From positions 62,001-126,000 of the forward strand of contig DATMES010000035.1 in NCBI GenBank assembly GCA_035556555.1: 64,000 nucleotides of DNA. The letters are read 5' to 3'. The stretch is from Frankiaceae bacterium. Lineage in GTDB: Bacteria > Actinomycetota > Actinomycetes > BP-191. The position numbers and the translations under genes were made by a program. This document shows, in pieces, positions 11,264 to 49,284 of this stretch (position 1 is the stretch's first letter; each line of letters starts with the position of its first letter). The notes under the pieces were generated by a model, which saw only the letters and a program-made list of their open reading frames with translations, was not told the origin of the DNA and did no database searches.

Positions 11264-11941
11264 ATGGAGGACCTGCTCCGCGCTTCCCCGCTCTTCTCGG
11301 GGCTGGACGACGAGGCGTGGGCCGCGCTGTACGCCCGCCTGACGACCGCGGCTCTGGCGCGCGGCGAGACGCTGTTCCGCGAGGGCGACCCCGGCGAGGC
11401 ACTGCACGTCGTGGCCGACGGCAAGGTCAAGATCTGCCGTACGTCGGGTGACGGGCGCGAGAACGTCATCGCCATCCTCGGCCCCGGCGACCTCCTCGGC
11501 GAGCTCGCGATCTTCGACTCGCAGCCCCGCGGCGCGACCGCCGCCGCCGTCGTCGACTCGACGCTCGCGGCGCTGGGCAAGGACGACTTCCACGCCTGGC
11601 TGGCCGAGTACCCGGCGGTCGCGTCGTCGCTGCTGCACGCGCTCGCCGTACGCCTCCGCCAGACGAACGAGGCCATGGCCGACCTCGTGTTCGCCGACGT
11701 GCCGGGCCGGATCGCGAAGACGCTGCTGGGCCTCGCCGAGCGCTTCGGGCAGCCGGACGACGGCGGCGGCATCCGGGTCGCGCACGACCTCACGCAGGAG
11801 GAGCTGGCGCAGCTCGTCGGCGCGTCCCGCGAGACCGTCAACAAGGCCCTGTCGGACTTCGCCGCCCGCGGCTGGCTCCGCCTCGACAACAAGGCTGTGG
11901 TCATCCTGGACCGCGAGCGCCTGGAGCGCCGGGCTCGCTAG
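11264..11941 (+). CDS. Crp/Fnr family transcriptional regulator (GlxR-like)
   Basis: 225 aa. Residues ~5-120 are a cyclic-nucleotide-binding beta roll with the phosphate-binding cassette GELAIFDSQPRGATAAA, including the Arg that contacts the phosphate in CRP proteins. The C-terminal winged helix holds the recognition helix in LTQEELAQLVGASRETVNKALSDF. No Fe-S cysteines, so it is Crp-like rather than Fnr-like. Probably a cAMP-responsive global regulator; GlxR/Crp orthologue status is inference. TAGAGT eight bases before the ATG could drive a leaderless transcript. The converging neighbour encodes an adenylate cyclase, a plausible source of its ligand. Confidence 0.88.
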   Translation: MEDLLRASPLFSGLDDEAWAALYARLTTAALARGETLFREGDPGEALHVVADGKVKICRTSGDGRENVIAILGPGDLLGELAIFDSQPRGATAAAVVDSTLAALGKDDFHAWLAEYPAVASSLLHALAVRLRQTNEAMADLVFADVPGRIAKTLLGLAERFGQPDDGGGIRVAHDLTQEELAQLVGASRETVNKALSDFAARGWLRLDNKAVVILDRERLERRAR

Positions 11942-11945
11942 CAGG

Positions 11946-11997
11946 TCGGCCCGGCCCGCCCGCCCGTCCCCCCGCCCCCCGCCCCCCGCCCCCGCCC
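11946..11997. repeat. C-rich low-complexity tract
   Basis: About 50 bases almost entirely C with scattered G and T between converging genes, directly abutting a long inverted repeat. On the minus strand it is G-rich. No coding content. Confidence 0.7.
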
Positions 11998-12062
11998 GTG
12001 CGGCGTTTCATCCACGCAACGCGCCACGGTCGACGTTCCGTGCATGAAACGCCGCACGGGCG
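11993..12062. terminator. Long inverted repeat between converging genes
   Basis: Two perfect 19-base arms (beginning CGCCCGTGCGGCGTTTCAT) separated by 32 bases, lying between the Crp/Fnr and cyclase stop codons. It can form the same hairpin in both transcripts, so a bidirectional terminator or mRNA-end structure is likely. No second copy was seen in the window. Confidence 0.65.
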
Positions 12063-12080
12063 CGGGACGCGGGGTGGGAC

Positions 12081-15000
12081 TCAGCCGGGGGCCGCCGCCA
12101 GCAGGTCGGCGAGGGCCTGCTCGGTGGCGGCTCGCTCCTGGGCCTGCTCGGTCGCGGTCGCCTCGGCCAGGGCCGCGCGGAACGCCGCCTCCGCCTCCGC
12201 CACCCGGCCGTTCGCCCGCAGAGCCGAGCCGAGAGCGCGCAGCGAGATGACGCGGGACCGTACGTCCTCCGCCGGCGTCGCCACCGCCCGCTCGGCCGCC
12301 GCCAGTGCCTCCACGGGCCGCCCGCTGTCGAGCAGCGTCCCCGCGTAGTGCGCCAACGCCTGCCGCATCGGGAAGAGGAACGTCGGCCGCTCCGGCGCCG
12401 TCGCCGCGATGTCGGACAGCGCCGCCAGCGCCTCGGGCAGCCGTCCGCGCGCGCGGTCCACCAGCGCCAGTACGACGTGGCAGCCGACCTCGGTGTGCGG
12501 CTCGACGCCCATCTCCTGCGCCAGCGCGATCGCCTCGCGCGCGGCGGCCTCGGCGGCGTCGTACGACCTCGCCCAGTACGACGTCCACGCCAGCTCGATG
12601 AGTGACACGACGCGCGATGTCGGCTGCTTCGCCTCGACGGCCAGCGCCACGGCCGCCCGCAGCCCCGCCTCGGCGCGCGCGGTCTCGCCACGGCCCTGCA
12701 GCGCCATCGCCTGCGCGACCTGCGCGAGCGCCTGGCCCCACTGGTCGTCGATCGCCGAGAACAGCGCCACCGCCCGCGCCGCCTCGTCCTCCGCGGCGGT
12801 CAGGTCGCCGAGGTCGCTCGCCGCCATCGCGTCGATCGTCAGCGTCGCACCCTCGCCCCAGCGGTCGCCCATCTCGCGCGCCCGCGGCAGCAGCTCCGCG
12901 CAGATCGCGCGCGCCTCGCGCAGCCGCCCCTGGAGCAGCCGGACGAACGCCGCCGTCCCCATCGTCCACGCCACGCCGCCGGTGTCCTCGAACGCCGTGA
13001 ACGTCTCCAGCGCCCGCCCCAGCATCGTGTCGGCGCGGTCGTAGTCGCCGCGCGTCGTGGCGTTCCAGGCGAGGTGCTGGAGCGCCCAGCCGATGCCGCG
13101 TTCGTCGCGGGCGCGCTCGGCGCGTTCCAGCGCGTCGGCGAAGCGTTCCTCGGCCGCCGCGAGCCGGCCGCCGTAGTAGTCGATCAGCCCGATCAGCCGC
13201 GTCGCCTCGCCGGCCAGCCGGTCGTCGCCCGACGACGCCACCGACTCGAACAGCGACACAGCGCCCGCCTCGTCGCCCTTCTTGCGGCGTACGTCGCCGA
13301 GCACCAGCAGCGCCTCCGGCGTCTCGTCGCCCGCGAGGAGCGCCTCGGCCTCCTCGAGCCGGTGCGTCGCGGTGTACGCCTGCGCCAGCGCCCGCCGTGT
13401 CGCGTCGTCGGGCTGGCCTAGGGCGACGGCGCGTTCGAGCAGCGCGATGGCGCCGTAGTTCTGGTCGCGGGCCAGCGCGGCCTGCCCGAGCCGGCAGAGC
13501 GCCGCGTGCCCGAGGTCGCGCGCCGACCACGCCACGTCGTCGGCATCCAGGCCCATCTCGGCGGCGAGCGCGACCGCGCGCTCGGCGTGCTGCGCGACGT
13601 ACGCGTCGACCTCGTCCTGCTGCGCGGGCAGCCCCTCGCCCGCCCAGCGCGCCACGAGCGCGTGCCGCCGCGCGCGGGCGGCCTTGGGGATGCCGGCGTA
13701 CGCCACCTCGCGAGTGAGCGTGTGCCGGAACACGTACGACCCCTCGCCCGTCGGCCGCACGATGTCGCGCTCCGTCAGCTCCGTCAGGCCGTCGGGAGCC
13801 GACAGCGCCGCGGGCCAGAACTCCGCCCCCGCCACCGCCGCGTCCCGCAACGCCTCCTTGGCCGCCGGGTCGAGCCCGTCGATGCGCGCGGCGAGGACGG
13901 CGTGCACACCCGCGGGGAGTACGTCCGCCGGCAGGTCGCCCGCGAGCCGCCAGCCGGACTCCTCGCGGCGCAGCACCCCGCGGTCCACCAGCAGGTGCAG
14001 CAGCTCGGCGAGGAAGAACGGGTTGCCCTGCGCCCGTCCGAGCAGCGCCGTCCGGGAGGCGTCATCCAGCGCGGCACCGCCGAGGTACGCGCGGAGGAGG
14101 CGTTCGGCGGCGACGTCCTCCAACGGCTCCAACGGCAGCGCCGACGGGTTCGGCAGGTCGGCCAGCCACGCCGTGTGCGCCGCCGTGAGGAGGTCGGTCC
14201 GCGCCGCCGCGACGAGCAGCAGCGGGCCGCGTACCCGCGCGAGCGCCGCCGCGAGCAGCGAGCGCAGCGGCGTACCCGACCAGTGCAGGTCGTCCACGAC
14301 GACGACGAGCGGCCCCTCGTCGGCCAGCGCCTGCAGCAGGCCGGTGACGGCGTCGACCGACTCGCGCTCGCCCGCGCCCGGGTCGCCCGGCATCGCCGAC
14401 GCGCGCAGCGACAGCACCTCGTCGTCGGCGAGCCCGAGGAACGTCGCCAGCCGGTCCACGAACATCCCCTGCGCCCACGCGCCACCGGCGGGGGAGTCGA
14501 GGCGGGCGACCGTACGGCGCACGCGGTCGCGCGCGACGTCCGGCGGGTCGCTGTCCTCGATGCCGCAGGCGGTGCGCACGATCTCCAGCACCGGCGCGAG
14601 GTCGCGGCCCTCGCCGTACGGCGTGCACCGCCCCCACAGCACCCGCGACCGCGACAGCTCGCCCGCGAACCGCCCGAGCTCGCTCGCCAGCCGCGTCTTG
14701 CCGACGCCCGCGTCGCCGGTGACGAGCACGGCGGCGGGCGCGGACGTGTCCACCGCGTCCATGAGCCGCCCGATGAGCAGCCCGAGCTCCGCCTCCCTGC
14801 CGACGAACGGCGCCTCGTCGCCGAGCCCCGTCCGCGCGGCGGGTCGGCGGCGCAGGTCGAGCAGCTCGTACGCCGCCACCGGCTCGCGCTTGCCCTTGAG
14901 CCGCAACGGAGGCAGCGCCCGCCACGACGCCGCCTCCAGCGTCGCGGCCGCCGTCGTACGCCCCGCGAGGATCGCGCCGACACCCGCCGCGTCGGACAGC

Positions 15001-18644: not shown

Positions 18645-18719
18645 GATGTTACCGGTGAGTACGGACTGCCACAGTCACCGCCTGAGCGTGCCTCCGAGTC
18701 CGTACTCACCGGTAACATC
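18645..18719. repeat. 75-bp inverted-repeat element, copy 1
   Basis: Perfect 23-base arms (beginning GATGTTACCGGTGAGTACGG) with a 29-base loop. Arm sequence and total length match copy 2 at 22959-23033. It lies after the CapA stop and extends into the 3' end of the converging TetR gene, whose stop codon is inside the loop. Likely a bidirectional transcript-end hairpin. Confidence 0.75.
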
Positions 18720-22958: not shown

Positions 22959-23033
22959 GAAGTTACTGGTGAGTAGCGACGTCGCCGTTCACCAGTTCGT
23001 GCTCGCCGTCAGTCGCTACTCACCAGTAACTTC
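22959..23033. repeat. 75-bp inverted-repeat element, copy 2
   Basis: Perfect 22-base arms (beginning GAAGTTACTGGTGAGTAGCG) with a 31-base loop. Same length as copy 1, with 15 of the first 17 arm bases identical. Located after the slipin gene, between two minus-strand genes. The shifted slipin frame terminates inside its right arm. Confidence 0.75.
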
Positions 23034-26082: not shown

Positions 26083-27042
26083 GTGACGTTCTTCCCGGGC
26101 ATCCGGCTGCACGTCGTGACCGGGAAGGGGGGCACCGGGAAGACGACGGTCGCCGCGGCGCTCGCCGTGGCGCTGTCCCGGGGTGGCAGGCGCGTGCTCG
26201 TCGCCGAGGTGGAGGGCAGGCAGGGGCTGGCGCCGCTGTTCGGGAAGGGGCCGCTGCCGCACGGGGAGACCCACGTCACGACCACCGAGGGCGGGGGGTC
26301 GGTGTCGGTGCTGCCGGTGGACCCCGAGCGCGCGCTGATCGAGTACCTCGACCTCTTCTACCACCTGGGCCGGGCGGGCAAGGTGCTGCAGAAGATGGGC
26401 GCCGTCGACTTCGTGACGACGATCGCGCCCGGGCTGCGGGACGTGCTGCTGATCGGCAAGGTGAAGGAGGCCGTCGTACGCCGCGCCGGCTCCGGCCGCT
26501 ACTACGACGCCGTCGTCCTCGACGCGCCGCCGACCGGGCGGATCGTGCGGTTCCTCGGGGCGACCGACGAGGTCGCGCAGATCGCCAAGGTGGGGCCGAT
26601 CCGTTCGCAGAGCGAGCAGGTCATGGCGATGCTGCGCGGCGACGAGACGGCGATCCACCTCGCGACGCTGCTCGAGGAGATGCCGGTGCAGGAGACCATC
26701 GACGGCGTCGACCACCTGGTCGCGGCGGGCCTGCCGGTGGGCGCGATCGTCGTCAACAGGGTGCGTTCGGAGCACCTCGCCGGGCCCGACCTGAAGAAGG
26801 CCGCGGCGGGGCGTCTCGACGTGGAGGCCATCGGCGCGGTGCTGGGCGAGGCGGGTCTGGCCGAGCCCGGGCTGGCGAAGGTGCTCGCCGAGGAGGCGTC
26901 GGAGCACGCGCGGCGGGTGGCGTTGCAGCAGGAGATGCGCGCCGACCTCCTGGCGCTCGGCCTGCCGCTCGTGGAGCTGCCGCTGCTCACGGAGACCGTG
27001 GACCTCGGGTCGGTCACGCGGCTCGCGGAGGCGTTCGCATGA
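26083..27042 (+). CDS. Get3/ArsA-like ATPase, first of pair
   Basis: 319 aa. The deviant Walker A is VTGKGGTGKTT with the signature Lys intact. Switch regions appear as AEVEGRQGLAPLF and VVLDAPPTGRIVRF. The gene is coupled to the second ATPase (ATGA overlap). Gene order ATPase, ATPase, WhiB, PBP matches Mycobacterium Rv3679-Rv3680-whiB4-ponA2 and Streptomyces SCO3577-3580. The mycobacterial pair forms a Get3-like complex linked to envelope/glycerol metabolism. Three in-frame GTG codons (26065, 26074, 26083) could start it; the last is chosen without strong support. Confidence 0.88.
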   Translation: MTFFPGIRLHVVTGKGGTGKTTVAAALAVALSRGGRRVLVAEVEGRQGLAPLFGKGPLPHGETHVTTTEGGGSVSVLPVDPERALIEYLDLFYHLGRAGKVLQKMGAVDFVTTIAPGLRDVLLIGKVKEAVVRRAGSGRYYDAVVLDAPPTGRIVRFLGATDEVAQIAKVGPIRSQSEQVMAMLRGDETAIHLATLLEEMPVQETIDGVDHLVAAGLPVGAIVVNRVRSEHLAGPDLKKAAAGRLDVEAIGAVLGEAGLAEPGLAKVLAEEASEHARRVALQQEMRADLLALGLPLVELPLLTETVDLGSVTRLAEAFA

Positions 27043-28160
27043 CGTTCGACCTCGACGCGATGCTGGCGACGAAGAAGATCGTCGTCTGCTGCGGATCCGG
27101 CGGTGTGGGGAAGACGACAACCGCTGCGGCCCTGGCACTGCGGGCCGCCGAGCGCGGCCGCCGCGTCGTCGTCGTCACCATCGACCCGGCCAAGCGGCTC
27201 GCCCAGTCGCTCGGCCTCACCGAGCTCGACAACACCCCCCGGCCGGTCACCGGCGCGGTCTCGGGGAGCGGCGAGCTGCACGCGATGATGCTGGACATGA
27301 AGAGGACGTTCGACGACATCGTCCTCACCCACGCCGACGCCGAGCGGGCACAGCAGATCCTCGCCAACCCGTTCTACGTGATGCTCTCCGCCAACCTCGC
27401 CGGCACGCAGGAGTACATGGCGATGGAGAAGCTCGGGCAGCTCCACGCCACCGGCGAGTGGGACCTCATCGTCGTGGACACGCCGCCGACCCGTTCCGCG
27501 CTCGACTTCCTCGACGCGCCGGACCGGATGACGCGGTTCCTGGAGGGGCGGTTCCTCCGGCTCGTGCTGGCGCCGGCGAAGGCGGGCGGGCGGTTCGGCG
27601 TACGGGTGATGAACGTCGGCCTCAACACCTTCACCGGCGTCATCACCAAGATCACCGGGGCGGAGCTGCTGCGGGACCTGCGGGACTTCTTCGCGGCGTT
27701 CGAGACGATGTTCGGCGGGTTCCGCGACCGCGCGCAGCAGACGTACTCGCTGCTGCAGGCCCGGGACACGGCGTTCGTCGTGGTGGCGTCGCCCGACCCC
27801 GCGGCGCTGCGCGAGGCGGCGTACTTCGTCGAACGCCTCTCCGCCGAGCGGATGCCGCTGGCCTGCGTCGTCGTCAACCGCGTGCATCGCGTGGCGACGA
27901 CGGCTGTCACGCCGGAACGCGCGGTGGCGACGGCGGAGGTGCTGGCCGAACGCCGCGTGCGCGGGCCGGCTGCGGGGCTGCTGCGGCTCCACGCCGACCG
28001 GCTCGCGGTGGCGGCGGCGGAGCGGCGGACGATCCGCGCGTTCGCGGCGGGGCGGGCCGACGTGCCGATGCTGGAGGTGCCGGCGATGGCGGCCGACGTG
28101 CACGACGTAGACGACCTGCGGCGGATCGGCTTGGCGCTGGCGGGCGACCCCGCGGCGTAA
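27039..28160 (+). CDS. Get3/ArsA-like ATPase, second of pair
   Basis: 373 aa. The Walker A reads CCGSGGVGKTT: the signature Lys of the first partner is Ser here, as is usual for the second member of this pair. Other motifs: TIDPAKRLAQSLGL (switch I) and VVDTPPTRSALDFLDAP (switch II). A helical domain at ~95-215 could bind a partner or hydrophobic client. No arsenite Cys triad, so arsenic pumping is unlikely. Expected to act as a heterodimer with the preceding ATPase. Confidence 0.9.
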   Translation: MTFDLDAMLATKKIVVCCGSGGVGKTTTAAALALRAAERGRRVVVVTIDPAKRLAQSLGLTELDNTPRPVTGAVSGSGELHAMMLDMKRTFDDIVLTHADAERAQQILANPFYVMLSANLAGTQEYMAMEKLGQLHATGEWDLIVVDTPPTRSALDFLDAPDRMTRFLEGRFLRLVLAPAKAGGRFGVRVMNVGLNTFTGVITKITGAELLRDLRDFFAAFETMFGGFRDRAQQTYSLLQARDTAFVVVASPDPAALREAAYFVERLSAERMPLACVVVNRVHRVATTAVTPERAVATAEVLAERRVRGPAAGLLRLHADRLAVAAAERRTIRAFAAGRADVPMLEVPAMAADVHDVDDLRRIGLALAGDPAA

Positions 28161-28185: not shown

Positions 28186-28237
28186 CGTTCTCTGCGGTTC
28201 ACGCGCCGGTCTCACGCGTGATGATCTTCAAAGAACG
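28186..28237. repeat. 52-bp element, copy 1 (forward)
   Basis: CGTTCT at the left end and AGAACG at the right, with inner arms TCACGCG and CGCGTGA and the shared core GCCGGTCTC plus TGATCTTCA. The same 52-base sequence recurs inverted at 31348-31399 and 39053-39104. Located between the converging ATPase and WblA genes. Confidence 0.8.
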
Positions 28238-28376: not shown

Positions 28377-28658
28377 CTAGGCGGTCGAGTAGCTCTTCTC
28401 GAAGTCCTGACGAGCGGTGAGCAGCAGAACGTTCCAGGACTTCACGTCGGGACGGCGGCGGAGCAGCGCGCGGCGCTCACGCTCGGTCATCCCGCCCCAG
28501 ACCCCGAACTCGACGCGGTTGTCGAGGGCGTCGGCCAGGCACTCGGTGCGCACGGGGCACCCGAGGCACACCTGCTTCGCGCGGTTCTGGGCCGCTCCCT
28601 GGACGAACAGCTCGTCCGGGTCGGTCGTACGGCAGCTCGCGCGGGTGGTCCAGTCCAT
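28377..28658 (-). CDS. wblA: WhiB family regulator, WblA/WhiB4-like
   Basis: 93 aa. Cluster Cys: SCRTTDP (Cys9) and CLGCPVRTEC (C-x2-C-x5-C). These are followed by GVWGGMTERERRALLRRRP, the DNA-contact region. The longer C-terminal tail (SWNVLLLTARQDFEKSYS) and the position between the Get3-like pair and a class A PBP identify it as the WblA (Streptomyces)/WhiB4 (Mycobacterium) orthologue, a redox-sensing regulator of development and oxidative-stress genes. Diverges from the PBP gene. Confidence 0.85.
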   Translation of the reverse strand: MDWTTRASCRTTDPDELFVQGAAQNRAKQVCLGCPVRTECLADALDNRVEFGVWGGMTERERRALLRRRPDVKSWNVLLLTARQDFEKSYSTA

Positions 28659-28893: not shown

Positions 28894-31308
28894 GTGACGT
28901 TGTTGGCACGTACGGACTCGGGCAGCGCGCTGCACCGGAGCGCCCTCGTGCTGGCCGTCAGCGTGCTCGCGGGGCTGCTGCTGGCGGCGGGGGCGTTTCC
29001 GCTGGTGGGCGGCTTCGGCATGCTCGCCAGGGCGGGCGCGGAGTCGTTCGACAAGCTGCCGGACGAGCTCGAGGAGGAGCCGCTCCCGCAGCGCTCGAAG
29101 ATCCTCGCCGCGGACGGGTCCGTGCTGGCAGAGATCTTCCTCAACGAGAACCGCGTCGTCGTGCCGATCAGCGAGATCCCCGACGACGTCGTCTACAGCA
29201 TCCTGGCCGTCGAGGACTCCCGCTTCTACGAGCACCGCGGCATCGACGTGCGCGGCCTCGCCCGCGCGCTGTGGCGCAACCGGCAGGCCGGCGAGGTCAC
29301 CCAGGGCGGGTCGACGATCACCCAGCAGTACGTCAAGAACGTCCTCGTCGAGAACGCCGACGACAAGGCCGATGCCGCCAAGGCGATCGAGCGGTCGACG
29401 CAGCGGAAGATCCGCGAGGCGCGGTACGCCATCGCGCTGGAACGCCGCTACACCAAGCGCGAGATCCTCGAGAAGTACCTGAACATCGCGTACTTCGGCG
29501 ACGGCGTGTACGGCGTCGGCACCGCCGCGCAGCACTACTTCCGCAAGCCCGTCCAGAAGCTCACGCTCGGCGAGTCGGCGCTGCTGGCCGGCATGGTCAA
29601 GAACCCCCGCTTCTACAACCCCGTCGACAACCCGCGGAACGCCAAGGCGCGCCGCGACCTCGTGCTGACGCGCGCCGCCGAGGTCGGCTTCATCGACCCC
29701 GCGCGCGTCGCCGCCGCGGTGAAGAAGCCGTTGCCGAAGATCAACCCGCAGAAGCTGGCAGACCTGCAGAACAACAAGATCGCGCCGGCGTTCCTCACGT
29801 ACATGCGCGAGTACTTCCTCAGCGACCCGAAGTTCGGGGCGACGGAGGGGGAGCGCAAGGCGCGGCTGTTCCAGGGCGGCCTCGAGGTCCACACGACGCT
29901 CGACCCGAAGCTGCAGGCCGTCGCGACCGCGACGCTGAACAAGACCCTCCCGCTGCCGAACGACCCCGCCGCCGCTGCCGTCGTCGTCACGCCCGGCACA
30001 GGCGAGGTCAAGGCGATGGCCGTCGTCAACCACGACGCCAAGACCAAGCAGGTCAACCTCGCCACCGGCGGCTCGTCGGGCTTCCAGGCGGGGTCGACGT
30101 TCAAGATGTTCACGCTCGCGGCCGCCGTCGAGCAGGGCCTCCCGCTCAAGCTGCGGCTGAACTCTCCCGCCCGCTACCGGCCCGACCCGGCGAAGTGCGA
30201 CACCCCCGACGACGGCGTGTTCCAGAACGCCGGCGACAGCGAGGCCGGCAACTTCGACCTGCCGACCGCCACGTGGATGTCGGTCAACACGTACTACGTG
30301 CAGCTCCAGGACCGCGTCGGCATCCCGAGCGTCGCCGCGATGGCGCGCCGGATGGGCGTGACGCTCAACAGGGAGCCCGGCTCGCGGGAGTGCGCGTTCA
30401 CGCTCGGCAGCTTCGAGGTCGACCCGCTGGAGATGGCGGCGGCGTACGCGACGCTGGCCGCGGAGGGCATGTACTGCAAGCCGATGCCGATCACGTCGGT
30501 GAAGGCGCCGGACGAGGACGTGCAGACGTTCGAGCCCGAGTGCAGCCGCGTGCTCACCGCCGACGACGCCAACACCGTCACGTCGGTCCTGCGCGGCGTC
30601 ATCGACGGCACTCACCCGCACCGTACGGGCCGTGCCGCGTCCCTCGGCCGTCCCGCCGCCGGCAAGACCGGCACGACGACGGGGCCGAGCGCGGCGTGGT
30701 TCGACGGCTACACGCCCGACTTCGCGGCGGCCGTCTGGATGGGCCACCCGACCGCTCCCGCGTTCAACCCGCTGCGCAACGTGCACGGCGTCGGCACGGT
30801 GTACGGGGGCGGGTTCCCCGCGCAGATGTGGCGGGAGATCATGCTCGCCGCCCACGACGGCCTGCCCGTACGAGACTTCCCCGACCCGCCCGCGACGGCG
30901 TTGTTCGGCAAGCAGGTGGCCGTGCCGGACCTCCGCGGGATGACGCCGGAGGAGGCGGAGGAGGCGCTCCGCGGGCTCGGGCTGACGCTGGTCGTCAACC
31001 GCGGCTCCGTCAACGCCGCCCCGATCCCGGCGGGTGCCATCGGGTCGCAGCGGCCGTCCCCCGGGACGAACGTCGCCAAGGGCTCCGTCGTCACCGTCTA
31101 CCTGTCGAACGGCCGCTACCCGCCGGTCCAGCCGTCCCCGACGCCCACGAAGACGGCGCCGCTCACGCCGTTGCCGAGCTCGTCCACGCCTCCGCCGCCT
31201 CCGCCGAGCTGCAACGGCAACCCCAAGAAGTGCCAGACGCCCTCGCCGACCCCGACTCCCACGCCGTCGCCGAGCGGCGGTACGGGCGGCGAACAGGGCG
31301 GCGGCTAG
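28894..31308 (+). CDS. Class A penicillin-binding protein with PASTA domain (PonA2-like)
   Basis: 804 aa from a GTG. One membrane helix (~15-40). Transglycosylase motifs: VEDSRFYEHRGID and GGSTITQQYVKN. Transpeptidase motifs: GSTFKMF (SxxK), SVNTYY (SxN) and GKTGTT (KTG). A single PASTA domain (VAVPDLRGMTPEEAEEALRG) sits at ~670-735, then a Pro-Ser-Thr tail. It polymerises and cross-links peptidoglycan outside the membrane. Synteny with WblA and the Get3-like pair points to PonA2. Confidence 0.93.
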   Translation: MTLLARTDSGSALHRSALVLAVSVLAGLLLAAGAFPLVGGFGMLARAGAESFDKLPDELEEEPLPQRSKILAADGSVLAEIFLNENRVVVPISEIPDDVVYSILAVEDSRFYEHRGIDVRGLARALWRNRQAGEVTQGGSTITQQYVKNVLVENADDKADAAKAIERSTQRKIREARYAIALERRYTKREILEKYLNIAYFGDGVYGVGTAAQHYFRKPVQKLTLGESALLAGMVKNPRFYNPVDNPRNAKARRDLVLTRAAEVGFIDPARVAAAVKKPLPKINPQKLADLQNNKIAPAFLTYMREYFLSDPKFGATEGERKARLFQGGLEVHTTLDPKLQAVATATLNKTLPLPNDPAAAAVVVTPGTGEVKAMAVVNHDAKTKQVNLATGGSSGFQAGSTFKMFTLAAAVEQGLPLKLRLNSPARYRPDPAKCDTPDDGVFQNAGDSEAGNFDLPTATWMSVNTYYVQLQDRVGIPSVAAMARRMGVTLNREPGSRECAFTLGSFEVDPLEMAAAYATLAAEGMYCKPMPITSVKAPDEDVQTFEPECSRVLTADDANTVTSVLRGVIDGTHPHRTGRAASLGRPAAGKTGTTTGPSAAWFDGYTPDFAAAVWMGHPTAPAFNPLRNVHGVGTVYGGGFPAQMWREIMLAAHDGLPVRDFPDPPATALFGKQVAVPDLRGMTPEEAEEALRGLGLTLVVNRGSVNAAPIPAGAIGSQRPSPGTNVAKGSVVTVYLSNGRYPPVQPSPTPTKTAPLTPLPSSSTPPPPPPSCNGNPKKCQTPSPTPTPTPSPSGGTGGEQGGG

Positions 31309-31347: not shown

Positions 31348-31399
31348 CGTTCTCTGAAGATCGCCACGCTCGAGACCGGCGGGTGGACTGCAAGGGTCG
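31348..31399. repeat. 52-bp element, copy 2 (inverted)
   Basis: Inverted copy of the element at 28186-28237. The core GAGACCGGCG and the CGTTCTCTGAAGATC end are well preserved; the other end is diverged (AGGGTCG for AGAACG). Lies between the converging PBP and YqeY genes. Confidence 0.75.
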
Positions 31400-31414: not shown

Positions 31415-31870
31415 TCAGGAGCTCAGCGCCTTCTTGACGGCGGCGGCGACGCGGCCGCCCTCGGCGCGGCCCGCGACCTGCGGCGTCACGAGCTTCATGA
31501 CGAGCCCCATCTGCTGCGGCGACGTCGCGCCGGTCTCCGCGATCGCCGTCGCGACGAGCGCGGTGAGGTCCTCGTCGGACAGCTGCGCGGGCAGGTACTC
31601 CTCGACGATCGCGCCCTCGGCCCGCTCGCGCTCCGCGAGCTCCGTACGGCCGCCGTCGCTGAACGCCTCCGCCGCCTCGCGCCGCTTCTTCCCCTCGCGG
31701 GCCAGCACCTTGAGCACCTCGTCGTCGTCCAGCTCGCGGGCCGCGCCGCCGGAGACCTCTTCGTTCTTGATCGCGGTCAGGACCATCCGCAACGTCGCCG
31801 TGCGGAGCTCGTCACGGGCCTTCATCGCGGTGGTCAGGTCGTTCTGCAGCCGGTCCTTGAGGTCGCTCAT
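31415..31870 (-). CDS. GatB/YqeY domain-containing protein
   Basis: 151 aa. It begins DLKDRLQNDLTTAMKARDELR, contains TLRMVLTAIKNEE, and ends with the tail-domain pattern GLVMKLVTPQVAGRAEGGRVAAAVKKAL shared with the C-terminus of GatB. Stand-alone YqeY proteins bind tRNA-related partners by homology but their role is unsettled. Its place beside the PBP and phosphoesterase genes is conserved in actinobacteria. Confidence 0.93.
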   Translation of the reverse strand: MSDLKDRLQNDLTTAMKARDELRTATLRMVLTAIKNEEVSGGAARELDDDEVLKVLAREGKKRREAAEAFSDGGRTELAERERAEGAIVEEYLPAQLSDEDLTALVATAIAETGATSPQQMGLVMKLVTPQVAGRAEGGRVAAAVKKALSS

Positions 31871-38235: not shown

Positions 38236-39036
38236 GTGCGTACCCGGCCGCTGCTGCTCGCGTTGCTCCTCGTCGCGCTTCCCGCGTGCACCGAGGACAA
38301 GAAGCCGCCGTACGACCCCGACGCGCCGCTGAAGGAGGCGCGGGCCCGCCTGGCGGTGCTCGCGCAGGCGACGGCGAACGGCGCGTACGACGCGCAGTAC
38401 CGCTTCCTCCAGCTCCCCTCCAACACCGCCGGCGTCATCCGGATCCGGCAGTCGCCGCCGCAGTACCGCATCGACATCGTGTCCAAGGACGGCGCGTCGT
38501 TCTTCGCGCTGAAGAGCGGCATCGTGTCGTGCTCCTCGAAGGCGTCGAAGAAGACCTGCTTCCTCGTGGCGCGGCCCGGCGAGGAGGTGCCGGCGCTGTT
38601 CGACCCGGGCGTGCAGCGGCTGTTCCGCGACGCCGTCGAGGACCTCGCCGCCAACCCCAACGGCTACATCGTCCGCCGCGTCGACCCCGTCCCGACCGCG
38701 ACACCGGTGTCGGCCACGCCGACGCCGACTCCGACGAAGACGCCGTCGAAGAAGCCGGTGTCGCCCACGCCGTCCCTGCTCCCGATCCCCGTGGGCGAGT
38801 GCTTCGAGGTGACGCGCACCATCGAGACGCCGGACCCGCAGCAGCCGTCGGGGTTCGAGAACGGCACGTACTGCTTCGCCGAGCAGGGCGTCGCGACGTC
38901 CATCAACGTGAAGTCGGGGACGATGACGCTGGTGAAGCTGCTCGGCCCGCCGCCGGCCGCGGCGTTCAAGCCGCCGGCGAAGGTCCAGAAGCTGCCCGAG
39001 CTCACGCCGACCCCGACCCCGTCGAAGAAGAAGTAG
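38236..39036 (+). CDS. Lipoprotein of unknown function
   Basis: 266 aa from a GTG. Lipobox ALPAC (Cys ~16). The N-terminal domain (~30-145) has [21 protein letters not shown], reminiscent of outer-face lipid- or sigma-associated lipoproteins, with Cys pairs in [12 protein letters not shown] Pro-Thr-Lys linker (~150-180) leads to a second small domain with GECFEVTRT and [10 protein letters not shown]. No enzyme motif. Inserted on the plus strand between lysC and recR, which are adjacent-type genes in many actinobacteria. Confidence 0.78.
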
Positions 39037-39052: not shown

Positions 39053-39104
39053 CGTTCTTTGAAGATCACCACGCGCGAGACCGGCGTGCGGGCTGCAGAG
39101 AACG
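39053..39104. repeat. 52-bp element, copy 3 (inverted)
   Basis: Inverted copy, closest to copy 1: ends CGTTCT/AGAACG intact and core GAGACCGGCG intact. Lies between the converging lipoprotein and recR genes, 16 bases from each stop. Confidence 0.8.
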
Positions 39105-39119: not shown

Positions 39120-39719
39120 CTACACGTCGAGGAGCCTGCGGCCCTCGAACGCCCTGCCGAGGGTGACCTCGTCGGCGTACTCCAGGTCCCCGCCCACCGG
39201 CAGCCCGCTCGCGAGCCGCGTCACGCGCATGCCCATCGGCTTCACGAGCCGCGCCAGGTAGGTGGCCGTGGCCTCGCCTTCGAGGTTCGGGTCGGTGGCG
39301 AGGATCAGCTCGGTCACGGAGCCGTCGGCGAGGCGCAGCATGAGCTCGCGGATGCGCAGGTCGTCGGGGCCGACGCCCTCGATGGGGCTGATCGCGCCGC
39401 CGAGCACGTGGTAGCGGCCCTTGAACTCCCGCGTCTTCTCGATGGCGACGACGTCCTTCGGCTCCTCGACGACGCAGATCACCGTGAGGTCGCGGCGGGT
39501 GTCGCGGCAGATGCGGCACTCCTCGGCCTCGGCGACGTTGCCGCAGACCCGGCAGAACTTCACCTTGTCCTTGACCTCGGTCAGCGCGTGGGCCAGCCGC
39601 TTCACGTCCGCGGGGTCGGCGGCGAGCAGGTGGAACGCGATCCGCTGCGCGCCCTTCGGCCCGACCCCGGGGAGGCGGCCGAGCTCGTCGATGAGGTCCT
39701 GGACCGGGCCTTCGTACAC
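39120..39719 (-). CDS. recR: Recombination protein RecR
   Basis: 199 aa, normal RecR length, from a GTG. Helix-hairpin-helix [19 protein letters not shown], the C4 zinc finger CRVCG...CRIC (~57-72), then a TOPRIM domain beginning [15 protein letters not shown]. The C-terminal Walker-like [15 protein letters not shown] is intact. Acts with RecF/RecO in loading RecA on gapped DNA. Normally directly after ybaB; here a plus-strand sigma cassette separates them. Confidence 0.96.
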
Positions 39720-39772
39720 CCCGTCAGTCTCTCGCGGAACGCCGCCCTCCGCCGGTCGCCGCGCGGACCCGG

Positions 39773-39807
39773 GGCAACCATTCGGGGCTCCCATCCGGTC
39801 GTACGCT
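39773..39807 (+). promoter_or_regulatory. Candidate ECF-type promoter of sigma cassette 1
   Basis: GGCAACCATTC, then 18 bases including GTCG, then TACGCT. The sigma cassette 2 promoter has the same two parts at the same 29-base offset (GGCAACCGTTT and TAGGGT). This suggests a shared recognition sequence, possibly autoregulation. Confidence 0.45.
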
Positions 39808-39834
39808 CGGCGACGGCGAACGAGAGGCGGCGGG

Positions 39835-40350
39835 GTGGGCGAGGCGGCGCGGGAGGCGTTCACGGAGTTCGTCCGTGCGCGCGGCACGGCGCTGCACCGC
39901 ACGGCGTTCATGCTCACCGGCGACTGGGCGCTCGCCGAGGACCTGCTGCAGACGGCGCTGGCGAAGTCGTACCTGCGCTGGGACCGCGTCGCCGTCGAGA
40001 ACCCGGAGGCGTACGTCCGCCGGGTCCTCGTGACGACGTACGCCTCGTGGTGGCGCCGCCGCTGGCGTGGCGAGGTGCCGACGGAGGCGCTGCCCGACAC
40101 GCCGAAGCCGGACGGCTGGGCCGACGTGGACGCGCGCGACGCGCTGCGCAGTGCGCTGGCCCGGCTGCCGCGGCGGATGCGCGCGGTGGTGGTGCTGAGG
40201 TTCCACGAGGACATGACCGAGGTGGCCGTCGCGGAGGCGCTCGGCGTCTCGGTCGGCACCGTGAAGAGCCAGGCCGCGAAGGGCCTGGCGAAGCTGCGCG
40301 CCGACGCCGGGCTGACCGGCTACGCGCACGCGGTGACGGAGGCGGAGTGA
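39835..40350 (+). CDS. SigE-family RNA polymerase sigma factor 1
   Basis: 171 aa from a GTG. Region 2: [33 protein letters not shown], with [16 protein letters not shown] at its end. Region 4: [36 protein letters not shown]. This is the SigE-family (TIGR02983-type) ECF-like architecture common in actinobacteria. Start codon of the next gene overlaps its stop (GTGA). About 75% identical by eye to sigma factor 2 located 2 kb away. Confidence 0.92.
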
Positions 40351-49224: not shown

Positions 49225-49284
49225 TTCGTGATCTTGGCAACGTTTCTGCTGCCCGGGCAGCACAGACGCAGCCAAGATCACGAA
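49225..49284. terminator. Nested inverted repeat at 3' end of DUF4062 gene
   Basis: Outer 14-base arms TTCGTGATCTTGGC/GCCAAGATCACGAA, with an inner palindrome TGCTGCCCGGGCAGCA in the loop. AT-rich bases (AATTTT) follow on the transcript's 3' side. The stop codon of the DUF4062 gene lies inside the arm. Confidence 0.65.

Follow-up and report, generated by a model that had tools for sequence, protein, structure and literature searches.

A 52-bp palindromic repeat occurs in at least 120 dispersed copies, almost all of them just past gene ends, in the 3.98-Mb genome of an uncultured actinomycete (G000) akin to the Frankiaceae MAG BP_191. This genome is the source of the 64,000-bp stretch of DNA analysed here (the window). 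The repeat is best interpreted, with a probability of about 0.6, as a non-autonomous, REP-like mobile palindrome retained at the ends of transcription units, where it possibly acts as a bidirectional mRNA-end signal. For comparison, two relatives of the same genus were used: G001, very probably Frankiaceae bacterium BP_191 (JAVEEC01), and G002; with G000 they constitute the whole order (three genomes, one genus) in the collection used.

Three copies of the element lie in the window, where the sequence-only reading had placed them; they align across 52 bp, and the core occurs three times vs 0 expected (100 shuffles). The copies and adjoining genes are given below; genes were called with our own codon-based caller and are uncurated, and gene names are by-eye readings of the translations, not profile matches.

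27039-28160, plus strand: gene (own gene call), 3' end toward copy 1
28186-28237, plus strand: element copy 1, with its two ends intact and a hairpin on either strand (z -3.2 and -4.2)
28377-28658, minus strand: WhiB-like gene (CxxC pattern seen by eye in the translation), 3' end toward copy 1
28948-31308, plus strand: penicillin-binding-protein-like gene (by eye), with 39 bp between its 3' end and copy 2
31348-31399, minus strand: element copy 2, with a decayed left arm (CGACCC) and no remaining hairpin
31415-31870, minus strand: conserved 151-aa gene (82% identity in G001, 80% in G002), with 15 bp between its 3' end and copy 2
38236-39036, plus strand: gene adjoining copy 3, 3' end 16 bp from the copy
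39053-39104, minus strand: element copy 3, both ends intact, best covariance-model score genome-wide
39120-40259, minus strand: RecR-like gene (by eye), with 15 bp between its 3' end and copy 3

The CGTTCT/AGAACG ends, described earlier for all three copies, are present in copies 1 and 3; copy 2 (CGATCTTCA) carries only one of them, its minus strand starting with CGACCC. Nor is there one common core, as copy 2 has GCGATCTTCA instead of TGATCTTCA. All three copies do lie between converging genes (28160/28377, 31308/31415 and 39036/39120). At the junction of copy 2 the G001 genome lacks the element, and 6 bp separate the two stops.

The patterns used to collect copies derive from the 52-bp element itself, so that very diverged copies escape them. 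With this limit, the core pattern gave 149 matches in G000 at up to 3 mismatches (the reversed pattern gave 0), and a covariance model recovered at least 150 copies in G000 and 97 in G001. A chance or compositional repeat, for which only the high GC content of the genome could be cited, is refuted by the reversed-pattern and shuffle counts. About 27 of the G000 copies lie within a MITE-like repeat of approximately 237 bp, the remainder being solo. This larger repeat has 26-bp inverted ends (CGCAACCGGGAGCCTTTTCCATCCTG) and was observed at loci L041-L052 (around position 1350-1583), with the 52-bp element inside; several assembly contigs terminate in it.

The distribution among genomes is narrow. 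No copy was found in G002, the third species of the genus, nor in the 294 other genomes of a 297-genome sample of the class, and scanning 395 genomes of the class for the half-site revealed only single scattered matches elsewhere. A scan of the collection identified a related form in MAG PMV_6.36, likewise at gene ends. Searches of phages, plasmids and viral contigs gave no convincing match, and Rfam no match at the gathering threshold (weak chance hits only, E 0.3-1.6). The core differs species-wide (GCCGGTCTC in G000, GCCCCTCTC in G001), which fits separate amplification.

Placement relative to genes was studied in 464 kb (background stretches of 400 kb plus the window) and around almost every listed copy. 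The 116 solo copies of G000 that could be placed comprise 58 in tandem, 50 in convergent and 8 in divergent gaps; background gaps of 52 bp or longer number 115, 36 and 49, respectively. Thus, the element is enriched in convergent gaps (odds ratio 3.5, p 2e-6) and depleted in divergent ones (odds ratio 0.23, p 6e-5). Essentially no copies are intragenic: the coding matches have 2-3 mismatches and lack the element ends, the exceptions being two matches in short, doubtful gene calls. The genome-wide pattern search proposed earlier yielded many further copies and essentially none within genes, whereas exclusive location between converging genes holds for the window and not for the genome; the three convergent copies of the window are a small-sample effect (0.43^3, about 0.08). 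The element typically begins 15-30 bp past a stop codon. Copies in tandem gaps follow the upstream stop at a median of 29 bp (94 bp for random placement in the same gap type), and in convergent gaps the element lies a median of 17 bp from the nearer stop (48 bp for random placement). G001 copies show the same positional picture. Since two genes end at a convergent junction and one in a tandem gap, the split between them is about as expected from 3'-end placement, and there is no need for a special preference for convergent pairs.

Such positions could also result if insertion were purely selfish and the copies had no function; in this variant of the main reading, insertion would occur anywhere, and the only survivors would be copies between genes and away from promoters. 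The depletion of genes and divergent gaps, the polymorphic sites and the decayed left arms of G000 copies (both described below) agree with this. However, copies crowd into the first 30 bp or so from stops more tightly than if placed at random in the same gaps, and the right half of the element is nearly invariant across more than 100 diverged copies. We regard absence of function as a serious possibility, albeit not the one we would choose.

Comparison of orthologous junctions points to separate gains. None of the seven G000/G001 junctions with orthologous genes on either side and the element in at least one genome is filled in both, so copies were gained lineage by lineage. Another six junctions carry the element in G000, and three in G001, where the G002 counterpart is empty. 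A looser, earlier comparison had given two junctions filled in both G000 and G001, in opposite orientation, which also fit separate gains. At several junctions, alignments show an extra 85-125 bp in the filled site relative to the empty orthologous one; as these insertions are not exactly 52 bp, the true mobile unit may be wider than the element as set here. At empty convergent junctions the stops are often abutting or overlapping. We infer a transposition-like mode of spread. At the ends of the 52-bp element, target-site duplications (lengths of 2-9 bp) did not exceed those of shuffled flanks; duplications may still occur at the borders of a wider unit.

REP-like repeats are best described in Proteobacteria, together with RAYT transposases. 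No Y1 (PF01797)/RAYT transposase was detected in G000, G001, G002 or G395, while positive controls were found in five reference genomes, and mobilisation of the element by a RAYT enzyme was rejected on this ground. The stretches between close copies contain ordinary genes only, with no transposase-like gene flanked by two copies that could represent an autonomous partner.

The same data bear on the proposal that the element is a site for a DNA-binding protein (chromosome organisation or regulation), multiplied by selection rather than by mobility. The half-site GCGTGNTGATCTTCANRGAACG is near-invariant in two species and has a related form in a third genome, as such a site might be. Selection on a binding site would nevertheless not account for presence and absence with 85-125-bp insertions at otherwise empty junctions, for carriage within a MITE or for absence from G002, and we consider this origin very unlikely.

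The ends of the element form a 9-bp terminal inverted repeat (CGTTCTNTG/CANRGAACG); in the PMV_6.36 relative the arms are near-perfect over 15 bp. The left arm CGTTCTGTG is kept in 54 of 68 G001 copies and has drifted in G000, where the right half (GCGTGNTGATCTTCANRGAACG) is the part conserved. Single copies fold with a mean z of -1.3 in G000 and about -3.5 in G001. Folding exceeds that of column-shuffled copies in both species, in a test that is inflated by the relatedness of the copies and, for G001, mixes two lengths. RNAalifold found no consensus structure, and pair counts on 37 sequences were close to those of shuffles. An extended stem formed by copy-specific complementarity of the flanks was rejected, as complementarity was not above that of swapped partners; the left flank is merely C-rich and the right merely G-rich. 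On the minus strand, frequent C-A mismatches turn into G-U pairs, and in tandem pairs it is this strand that is transcribed in 54 of 85 cases (p 0.017), which together are suggestive, no more, of a role in RNA. The near-invariant right half, combined with modest hairpins in G000, suggests sequence recognition beyond folding.

High-GC actinobacteria have hairpin terminators without a U-tract. The sequence-only reading had offered, as an alternative to a REP-like element, a dedicated bidirectional terminator or mRNA 3'-end protector; in its full form such a signal would be placed by selection, with a termination or RNA-processing factor recognising the conserved half. The positions are compatible with it: copies lie 15-30 bp past stops, their convergent/tandem split about matches that of gene 3' ends, and the minus strand prevails among transcribed tandem copies. 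Convergent gaps of 70-160 bp show strong hairpins where the element is missing (mean z -3.8, n = 13) and weak ones where it sits (mean z -1.0, n = 22), as if one had been substituted for the other. This difference is consistent with replacement of a terminator hairpin by the element or with insertion where none existed. On the other hand, many G000 hairpins are weak, many copies lack the left arm and do not fold, and T4 or longer follows in only 0-3% of element-bearing 3' regions. Moreover, G002, with the same genus and the same genes, does without the element, and purging of insertions elsewhere would give the same positions. A dedicated signal is an unlikely origin of the family.

The element is not the only palindrome at gene ends. 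At least three other families occur there in G000, two of them in the window:

18649-18715: diverged member of a second family of palindromes, between converging genes
22963-23029: member of that second family (TTACTGGTGAGTAGCG ... CGCTACTCACCAGTAA; roughly 67 bp long), at the 3' end of a gene
49228-49281: member of another palindrome family (GTGATCTTGGCNNCG ...; GTGATCTTGGCTGCGTTCGTGC ... GCACGAACGCAGCCAAGATCAC), between converging genes

The second family (TTACTGGTGAGTAGCG) is present in G001 and G002 too, and some hairpins of element-free gaps are themselves repeated palindromes (TTACTGGTGAGTAGCG, GATCACCTGTGTCC and GTGATCTTGGCTGCG). The family GTGATCTTGGCTGCGTTCGTGC ... GCACGAACGCAGCCAAGATCAC was also seen at locus L071 (about 7693 and 10042), at convergent and tandem gene ends, and an intergenic family GATCACCTGTGTCC ... 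GGACACAGGTGATC at L071 (17439), L074 (15075) and L083 (1374), G000 loci only. GATC adjoins the arm in three of the four palindrome families. A different structure, at 11941-12081 of the window, is a single large hairpin (stem >20 bp, no T-run) between converging genes and is likely a U-tract-less terminator. Of the 36 convergent gaps that measure 52 bp or more, the four families jointly fill 16, nearly always with one palindrome to a gap, a pattern statistically indistinguishable from independence at these numbers. It is conceivable, if rather improbable, that several unrelated palindrome families, moved by something other than Y1 enzymes, colonise transcription-unit ends one per junction and assume the job of bidirectional terminators. 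Were this so, termination signals would be portable and replaced species by species.

For the mobile palindrome retained at transcription-unit ends, we propose the following course. An ancestral palindrome of about 52 bp with inverted ends of 9-15 bp (CGTTCTGTG...CACAGAACG) would have been spread by an enzyme, separately in each species, and its copies would have been retained almost solely a short way past stop codons, where transcription units end. Transcription through a copy in either direction would produce a hairpin, which may serve as a mild bidirectional terminator or mRNA 3'-end boundary; this would help to explain retention at tight convergent junctions with no other hairpin. The family matters as a well-delimited one from uncultured actinobacteria, for which orthologous sites are seen both filled and empty, a sister species is element-free and no Y1 enzyme was detected. 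It brings two questions within reach of testing: which agent moves palindromes that lack tags, and whether landing at gene ends is tolerated or put to use.

Among known systems, the MITEs resemble the element in being short and non-autonomous, with terminal inverted repeats and insertion polymorphism; they differ in that no target-site duplication was detected at the 52-bp ends and no parent transposon between close copies. The U-tract-less hairpin terminators of actinobacteria share its location after stops and, at convergent junctions, a hairpin readable on both strands. Unlike them, the element has a conserved primary sequence, is dispersed and folds more weakly than the hairpins of element-free junctions. 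The closest resemblance is to REPs, which in a published survey are intergenic, mostly tandem or convergent and grouped in species-specific families, those at convergent sites lying <20 bp from both stops of the ORFs (PMC3733652). The REP-like character suggested from the sequence is accordingly borne out in copy number, intergenic location, 3'-end bias, palindromic ends, lineage-specific spread and stop spacing (PMC3733652), but not in the Y1/RAYT link. Members of the GTAG and CGTC super-families are 20-40 bp long and terminate on one side in a GTAG or CGTC tag that stays unpaired, and the CGTC super-family has no dedicated transposase (PMC3733652). The element is like both in being a dispersed intergenic palindrome of tandem and convergent gaps, near stops (about 20 bp), with a species-specific consensus; it differs from them in its length of 52 bp, the rarity of dimers, the lack of Y1 in the genomes searched and the lack of either tag on its ends (consensus read by eye). 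It is thus REP-like by position and spread, yet outside the GTAG and CGTC super-families and without a RAYT link. Untagged REP-like stem-loop families have been described in M. tuberculosis, D. radiodurans, Bordetella and Brucella (PMC3733652); by description these too are dispersed palindromic repeats without conserved terminal tags, from which the element is probably separate by sequence. We therefore class the element as an untagged, REP-like palindrome family of its own, new in sequence and known in type.
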